Assembly (NCBI RefSeq): GCF_014252455.1
Contig: NZ_CP060245.1
Coordinates: forward strand, 88,173 to 152,172
Source: Blattabacterium cuenoti
GTDB taxonomy: Bacteria; Bacteroidota; Bacteroidia; Flavobacteriales; Blattabacteriaceae
Reading direction: 5' to 3'
Length of the DNA: 64,000 nt
Shown: one piece after another, positions 43,633 to 55,757 of the stretch
How positions within the stretch are numbered: the first letter of the stretch is position 1
Layout of the letters: each line of letters opens with the position of its first letter
Notes under the pieces: generated by a model
The model's database searches: none
Seen by the model: only the letters and a program-made list of their open reading frames with translations
What the model was told of the DNA's origin: nothing
Position numbers and translations under genes: made by a program

Positions 43633-43980
43633 TTAATGAATTTGATTTAATATTTTTTTAATAGATGTATCAATTATTTTAAATGTCGGTAAAAATAAAC
43701 CCTTATAAATAAAAACTATATATATTTTGTTAAAATTTATTTTTTGTTCTAAAATATATTTATTAAATAAAAGTGAAGCTCGGAATAAGCGTTTTATTTT
43801 ATTTCTATGAACAGATTTTTTGAATATTTTTTTTTTTACTAAAATACCAATTAATTTTATTAATGTAGTTTTTTTTTTTCTTTTTTCTAAAAAATAAGCT
43901 ATTTTAATAGGAAATACTGATAAAAAATTTCCATATTCTAGAATATCTCCTACATTTTTTTTTAATGAAAAAATTTTCAT
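43633..43980 (-). CDS. rnpA: RNase P protein component
   Basis: RnpA is the protein subunit of RNase P. The RNR motif is in [13 protein letters not shown], and the fold is preceded by [13 protein letters not shown]. At 115 aa it is of usual size. Its start overlaps the fbp stop by 4 bases, not the common rpmH-rnpA neighbourhood. The RNA partner rnpB is at 32141-32427. Confidence 0.93.
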
Positions 43981-47118: not shown

Positions 47119-47564
47119 ATGAATCAAAAAATTTATAACAAAAAGTATGATATTTATTATATGAATGTAGCTATACAATATTCTAAATTATCTTTTTGTA
47201 AAAAAAAAAAGTAGGAGCTATTATTGTTAAAAACAATCGTATTATATCTAATGGATATAATAAAACTCCTAGTGTATTTGATAATATATGTGAAGATACA
47301 AATGGAAATACTAAATGGTATGTTTTACATGCAGAAGCTAATGCTATTTTAAAATTGACTATTTCTTATAAATCTTGTGAAGGAGCTTTTTTATATATTA
47401 CACATTTTCCATGTAAAGAATGTAGTAAATTAATTTATCAATCTAAGATTAAAAGAGTTATATATTTACATAAAGATATCATCAATAATGATATATTAAA
47501 TTTTTTTCATCAATCAAAAATTATAATATATCAAATTAATATTTTTACCCAGATGGCGGAATAG
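47119..47564 (+). pseudogene. dCMP deaminase with a frameshift at an A11 tract
   Basis: Two adjacent frames together encode a complete dCMP deaminase (ComEB-type). The first, from ATG 47119, reads to SKLSFCKKKK and stops at TAG 47212 directly after eleven A residues (47200-47210). The second continues with VGAIIVKNNRIISNGYN, the zinc motif HAEAN and PCKEC. Twelve A residues would give an unbroken 149-aa protein matching family members across the joint. It is therefore either a one-base loss in progress, a sequencing error, or a gene rescued by slippage. The enzyme supplies dUMP for ThyA (54960-55757). Its 3' end overlaps tRNA-Leu(CAA) by 18 bases. Confidence 0.85.
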
Positions 47565-47627
47565 GTTTACGCGCTGGACTCAAAATCCAGTGATTTTATC
47601 ATGCGGGTTCGAATCCCGCTCTGGGTA
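47547..47627 (+). tRNA. tRNA-Leu(CAA)
   Basis: An 81-nt class II tRNA. The acceptor ACCCAGA pairs with TCTGGGT, the anticodon stem CTGGA/TCCAG has loop CTCAAAA giving CAA, and the T arm reads GGTTCGAATCC. CCA is not encoded. Its first 18 bases are also the last codons of the dCMP deaminase frame on the same strand, so the two transcripts may compete or be processed apart. Confidence 0.95.
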
Positions 47628-47640
47628 TTTATTATTTTTT

Positions 47641-54959: not shown

Positions 54960-55757
54960 TTAAATGGCTATATCTCCTGAAATATGAGGAGATGGATTAT
55001 AATTTTTTAATTTAAAATCTTTGAATTTAAATTGAAAAATATTTTTTATAGAAGGATTTAAGATCATTTTAGGTAATGATTTTGGAGATCTTTTCATTTG
55101 AAGTTTTATTTGTTCTATATGGTTATTATAAATATGAGCATCTCCTATTGTATAGATTAAAGTTTTTTCTTTCAAATGAAGAGTTTTAGCTATCATAGTA
55201 AGCAATAAAGCATAAGAAGCTATATTAAATGGTAATCCTAAAAAAATATCTGCACTTCTTTGATATAATTGTAATGATAATTGTTTTTTATTAGAAACAT
55301 AAAATTGAAACATTAAATGACAGGGAGGTAATATCATTTTATGAATCATTCCTACATTCCAAGCAGAAACTATTAAACGTCTTGAATGAGGATTTATTTT
55401 AATTTCTTTGATAATATTCTTAATTTGATCAATATGATGTCCGTCATATGTTGGCCATTTTCTCCATTGAAATCCATATATTGGGCCTAGATCTCCATGA
55501 TCATTCGCCCATTCATCCCATATGGATACTTTATGATTTTTTAAGTATTGTATATTCGTATCTCCTTTTAAAAACCATAATAATTCATAAATAATAGATC
55601 GAATATTTAATTTTTTGGTAGTTAAAAGAGGAAACCCTTTTTCTAAATCAAATTTCATTTGAAAACCAAAAATACTTTTTGTACCTACTCCAGTACGATC
55701 CATTTTTTTTATTCCTTTTTTTAAAACTTTTTTCAATAAAAATAAATATTGTTTCAT
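54960..55757 (-). CDS. thyA: Thymidylate synthase
   Basis: ThyA methylates dUMP to dTMP using methylene-tetrahydrofolate. The nucleophile is C146 in [30 protein letters not shown] and the dUMP-binding motif RRLIVSAWN are present. At 265 aa it matches E. coli ThyA (264). Its substrate dUMP could come from dCMP deaminase, which is frameshifted at 47119-47564. It ends 5 bases from thrC. Confidence 0.97.

Follow-up and report, generated by a model that had tools for sequence, protein, structure and literature searches.

The window, by which we mean the whole analysed stretch of 64,000 nucleotides (64 kb), comes from a Blattabacterium genome of 608,467 bp. It contains a dCMP deaminase gene that is split in two at a run of 11 A, with the 5' half at 47119-47210 and the 3' half at 47211-47564. 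The features discussed below are as follows.

43633..43980, - strand: rnpA (RNase P protein), in frame in the source genome
43827..43837, - strand: A11 run of rnpA (T on the + strand), in frame in the source genome
47119..47214, + strand: 5' half of the dCMP deaminase gene, from ATG at 47119 to TAG at 47212-47214; the 0-frame product has 31 aa, ends in CKKKK and aligns with the N-terminus of in-frame relatives
47200..47210, + strand: A11 run, the site of the frame break; the in-frame length is 12 (or 9)
47211..47564, + strand: 3' half of the dCMP deaminase gene, 117 codons, HAE and PCxxC intact
47546..47628, + strand: tRNA-Leu (caa), found by ARAGORN; overlaps the end of the deaminase frame
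54960..55757, - strand: thyA (thymidylate synthase), PF00303 at 8.7e-118, intact

The poly-A run at 47200-47210 is exactly 11 A long and stands in the context TGT A11 GTAGGAGCT. From the ATG at 47119 the 0-frame reads MNQKIYNKKYDIYYMNVAIQYSKLSFCKKKK and terminates as C-KKKK-TAG; the 3' frame reads VGAIIVKN...HAEANAI...PCKEC... and is closed by a TAG at 47562-47564. In eight free-living relatives the spacing from Cys to Val-Gly is exactly four residues (12 nt), and the A11 run is therefore one base short. A spacing of 12 nt also separates the Cys and Val codons in all in-frame Blattabacterium relatives. The frame is restored by the addition of one A or by the removal of two. The one-base deficit that an earlier note had seen at this run is confirmed by the exact read of the run and by the 12-nt spacing in the relatives, and its description of two conserved halves that join once an A is added is borne out by the 5' and 3' frames and by the alignment of the relatives.

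The deaminase gene lacks a stop codon ahead of the tRNA-Leu gene, and its frame extends over the first 19 nt of that gene (47546-47564). The frame also seems to run into the tRNA in several relatives.

Enzyme identity and dUMP supply

The 3' half matches the deaminase family PF00383 with 72 bits (cut-off 25). The closest solved proteins are deoxycytidylate deaminases, among them 4p9c, which matches the 3' half at 4.5e-23. The zinc motifs of the deaminase domain, HAE (as HAEAN) and PCxxC (as PCKEC), are both present, and they are retained in all 37 genomes checked. Judged by this homology, the enzyme would convert dCMP to dUMP. The intact thyA is a plausible user of that dUMP, given the two protein families.

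The other usual source of dUMP is dUTPase, and a family search of the source assembly found no gene for it. Among 41 genomes, 8 have a dUTPase that scores above the family threshold, in most cases on a separate small contig. Because the gene lies on such a contig in most of the relatives that have it, its absence here may be an artefact, and it may merely be missing from the source assembly. Two genomes carry a chromosomal dUTPase about 4.7 kb before the deaminase (G034:C1:140033-140389 and G004:C1:139396-139728). In G034 and G066, rnpA is further away by about 3 kb, an arrangement that would fit an insertion of plasmid DNA.

Recurrence of the break and selection on the broken gene

The deaminase gene is retained in all 49 Blattabacterium genomes compared. 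Its frame is broken at a pure A-run in 32 of them (A11 in 30, A10 in 2) and intact in 16, of which nine have A12 and seven an interrupted 12-nt run. The remaining genome (G071) is broken differently, so that the break recurs at this one site in 32 of the 48 classifiable genomes. Comparison of the tract across relatives, which the earlier note had proposed as a check, thus reveals a recurrent break, and its presence as A11 in 30 of 49 genomes is therefore far beyond chance. A tree built from eight neighbouring proteins places broken genomes in every deep clade and requires at least nine changes between the broken and the in-frame state. Under a two-state model the broken share settles at 0.66 in the long run, as expected for frame-neutral drift of run length.

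In the deaminase of G071 (L108), TAG-TAA replaces the Cys codon before the A-run and the remainder is intact. The gene may be truly lost there, or the break may be of a different kind.

The same measure was taken in other genes. In 17 neighbouring genes (37 genomes), 8 of 250 pure runs of at least A10 coincided with a frame break, compared with 27 of 31 for the deaminase (p=2e-26). When 353 ORFs from six relatives were searched against the 64-kb window, no further frame break coincided with a run of at least 9 A or T. A test for asymmetry between A-runs and T-runs was empty, since the genes surveyed contained a single sense T-run of at least 10.

The downstream half shows no decay, as the earlier note had observed, and the wider comparison upholds this: premature stops in the 3' half, whose accumulation in relatives the note had named as a refutation, were found in none of 37 genomes examined, and dN/dS is the same whether the gene is broken or in frame. 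In simple counting estimates that use an inferred broken status for ancestors, pooled dN/dS of the 3' half is 0.298 in nine sister pairs with both members broken and 0.290 in five in-frame pairs; the eight neighbouring genes range from 0.07 to 0.28. Constraint extends to the 5' half, whose last 15 codons have a pN/pS of 0.38. In a clade of eight genomes, all with A11, dN/dS of the 3' half is 0.43. Neutral simulation on the branches of this clade gave a mean of 1.06 and a minimum of 0.74, with stops in at least 7 of 8 sequences, and none is observed. The uniformity of this A11 clade meets the possible objection that the breaks are all of very recent origin. Judged from these substitution patterns, both halves are under purifying selection while broken. 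The out-of-frame deaminase appears to evolve like a working gene, and its frame is most likely repaired during RNA or protein synthesis.

A few breaks in other genes were recorded along the way. Both rnhA (L061, L068, L080, L085) and trmH (L052, L059, L065, L068) show sporadic single-genome breaks at runs of 10-13 A, and the two are possible further rescued genes. In G026 (L075), ureC and ureAB are both frame-broken away from long A-runs, which suggests real urease loss there. In G025 (L074; 511 kb, the smallest genome of the set), thrA has two frame changes that are not at A-runs and sit near the homoserine dehydrogenase part.

How the frame may be restored

The composition of the run differs with its frame. 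Every broken run is pure A (32 of 32), and interruptions by G, T or C, which vary in base and position, occur in 7 of 16 in-frame runs vs none of the 32 broken ones (p=1.6e-4, an optimistic value because the species are related). Similarly, rnpA runs are interrupted in 3 of 9 in-frame genomes vs none of 34 broken ones (p=0.007). Such a distribution of interruptions between the frame states points to selection for run purity. Run length is also skewed. The ratio of A10 to A11 is 2:30 in the deaminase vs 147:68 in the 17 neighbouring genes (p=1e-11), and that of A11 to A12 is 30:9, equal to 68:22 in the same 17 genes (p=1). Avoidance of A10 together with parity of A11 and A12 is expected if insertion of one A on A11 restores the native product with four lysines; 11 and 12 A would then be nearly equal to selection, and 10 worse.

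A parallel case lies 3.3 kb away in rnpA: of 43 classified genomes, 34 have this gene broken at an A-run of its own (relatives' loci L050-L108). The wrong frame is one in 18 genomes and the other in 16, and the run is always pure. The RNase P protein is ordinarily essential, and the rnpA breaks therefore testify independently to an effective rescue. Breaks in both wrong frames can be mended by a ladder of transcript lengths, but not by a ribosomal shift in a single direction. In Blattabacterium strain Bge, rnpA was called the sole pseudogene, with a stop at codon 53 for which a point mutation was suggested (PMC2768785). Codon 53 coincides with the genus-wide position of the rnpA A-run, although most relatives have an A-run frame break instead of a point-mutation stop. 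In G062, taken as the counterpart of Bge, rnpA has a TAA with both flanks in one frame (GTA-A9-CTT-TAA-AAA-TCA), and the Bge gene may have gone one step beyond the state of its relatives.

The deaminase gene probably encodes a functional, recoded dCMP deaminase whose frame is restored by RNA polymerase slippage (+1) on A11. RNA polymerase would slip on the run so that a share of transcripts carries 12 A, and these would encode the full 148-residue enzyme (...SFC-KKKK-VGAII...); faithful 11-A transcripts would yield the 31-residue stub. If slippage supplies enough enzyme, A11 and A12 would be almost equivalent to selection, and the frame state would drift to and fro within the genus with the protein sequence remaining constrained. 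Polymerase slippage is preferred because it accounts at once for the purity of the runs, for 11 being favoured over 10 and for the two wrong frames of rnpA. In two other insect endosymbionts, corrected transcripts amount to 12-50% (PMC5009743), and in lacZ with 7-11 A, slippage led to insertion at least twice as often as to deletion (PMC6260861). The earlier note had already favoured slippage, and the frame break, the constraint and the run purity support it; the level of rescue (RNA polymerase or ribosome) and its efficiency are what we infer, and the sequence evidence fits partial as well as full rescue. That A11 is itself selected and not merely tolerated, as a programmed low dosage of deaminase and RNase P protein throughout the genus, is doubtful.

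The main rival is a -1 ribosomal frameshift at the heptamer A AAA AAG, a good site for such a shift, by which translation would continue into the GTA frame and produce the same CKKKKV joint. E. coli dnaX uses a -1 ribosomal frameshift at A AAA AAG, and the heptamer is also found in the Blattabacterium deaminase, in the right frame at 47205-47211, with the 0-frame TAG directly after it in the source genome; it is present at every A11-G. However, the deaminase differs from dnaX in that no stimulatory structure was found: pseudoknot-free folds of 31 broken genomes gave a mean z of -0.38 and differing structures, with none in common downstream. Inspection by eye of the region upstream of the heptamer also found no Shine-Dalgarno-like stretch. 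A -1 shift could mend neither the two A10 genomes nor about half of the rnpA cases, in which both wrong frames occur, and although fewer than 11 A would suffice for the heptamer, the entire run is pure in all 32 broken genomes. Ribosomal frameshifting is unlikely for these reasons.

Less probable still is a mixture at the DNA level within one host, in which the assembly records 11 A as the most frequent length and the enzyme comes from copies with 12 A. Long A-runs mutate often, and the repeated changes of frame state on the tree agree with this, but the uniform A11 of the clade of eight long-branched genomes indicates a stable consensus. Also, a bottlenecked symbiont passed from mother to offspring is expected to hold little diversity, which counts against such a mixture.

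An assembly or sequencing error that hides a true run of 12 A is very improbable. Homopolymers are error-prone, and some early genomes of the genus came from 454 machines (PMC4567559). However, the same 11 is read in 30 genomes and 12 in nine, the genomes stem from several laboratories and platforms, and among 68 A11 runs counted in 17 other genes from these assemblies, 65 are without a frame break. Mistakes would not avoid interrupted runs. The presence of A11 in 30 genomes and of interruptions solely in the in-frame state argues against assembly error and decay alike. A decaying pseudogene caught early, to which a frame break in a shrinking genome and a 0-frame product of merely 31 aa might point, is hardly credible for a gene kept in every genome, stop-free in the 3' frame of the 37 examined, under unchanged constraint and with its active-site motifs retained.

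Re-initiation at a Shine-Dalgarno-like AGGAG after the run was considered and rejected. The stretch follows from the Val-Gly codons, is not kept in relatives (GTAGGC, GTTGGT and others) and has no in-frame ATG, GTG or TTG close behind it.

Known systems and meaning for the genus

Frame breaks at poly(A) runs that are rescued by transcriptional slippage have been described in Buchnera and Blochmannia (reviewed in PMC5009743), and in Blochmannia such breaks are common to two species (Blochmannia vafer; PMC3017870). Blattabacterium resembles these AT-rich insect endosymbionts in having one indel, within an A-run of about 9-11 nt, in a gene that is otherwise intact, and in that some breaks are common to several species with no increase in rate. 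A lone indel in a pure A-run of at least 9, an otherwise intact gene and purifying selection on both sides of the break, as expected of a slippage-rescued gene, are found in the deaminase. In contrast, Blattabacterium belongs to another phylum (Flavobacteriales), its broken state is the majority of the genus (32 of 49 genomes), and its tally of purity by frame points to selection for run purity. The association of Blattabacterium with cockroaches has been dated to more than 200 million years (PMC9603385).

Programmed transcriptional slippage is known from Thermus dnaX, Shigella mxiE and spa13, and Citrobacter tssM (PMC6260861, PMC4256274). These cases are similar in that bases inserted at a homopolymer of 9-11 nt restore the frame. 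However, the deaminase gives no sign of two useful products, its 31-aa stub looks functionless, and Blattabacterium genomes with A12 manage without the break.

A literature search found no report of slippage rescue for Blattabacterium, although several relevant papers lay outside the search and priority is uncertain. What looks new is the scale, with a broken frame as the majority state of an old genus, in two genes. Frame-broken genes of symbionts are often counted as pseudogenes. Since the deaminase and rnpA are out of frame in most species, with no measurable drop in constraint on the deaminase, both the counting of lost genes and the metabolic modelling of Blattabacterium can go wrong for genes of this type. 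The finding that runs are interrupted solely when in frame offers a test for rescue from sequence that is usable for any genus with many genomes. The case of the deaminase also illustrates how a coding run can turn nearly neutral in its length once expression is sloppy enough.
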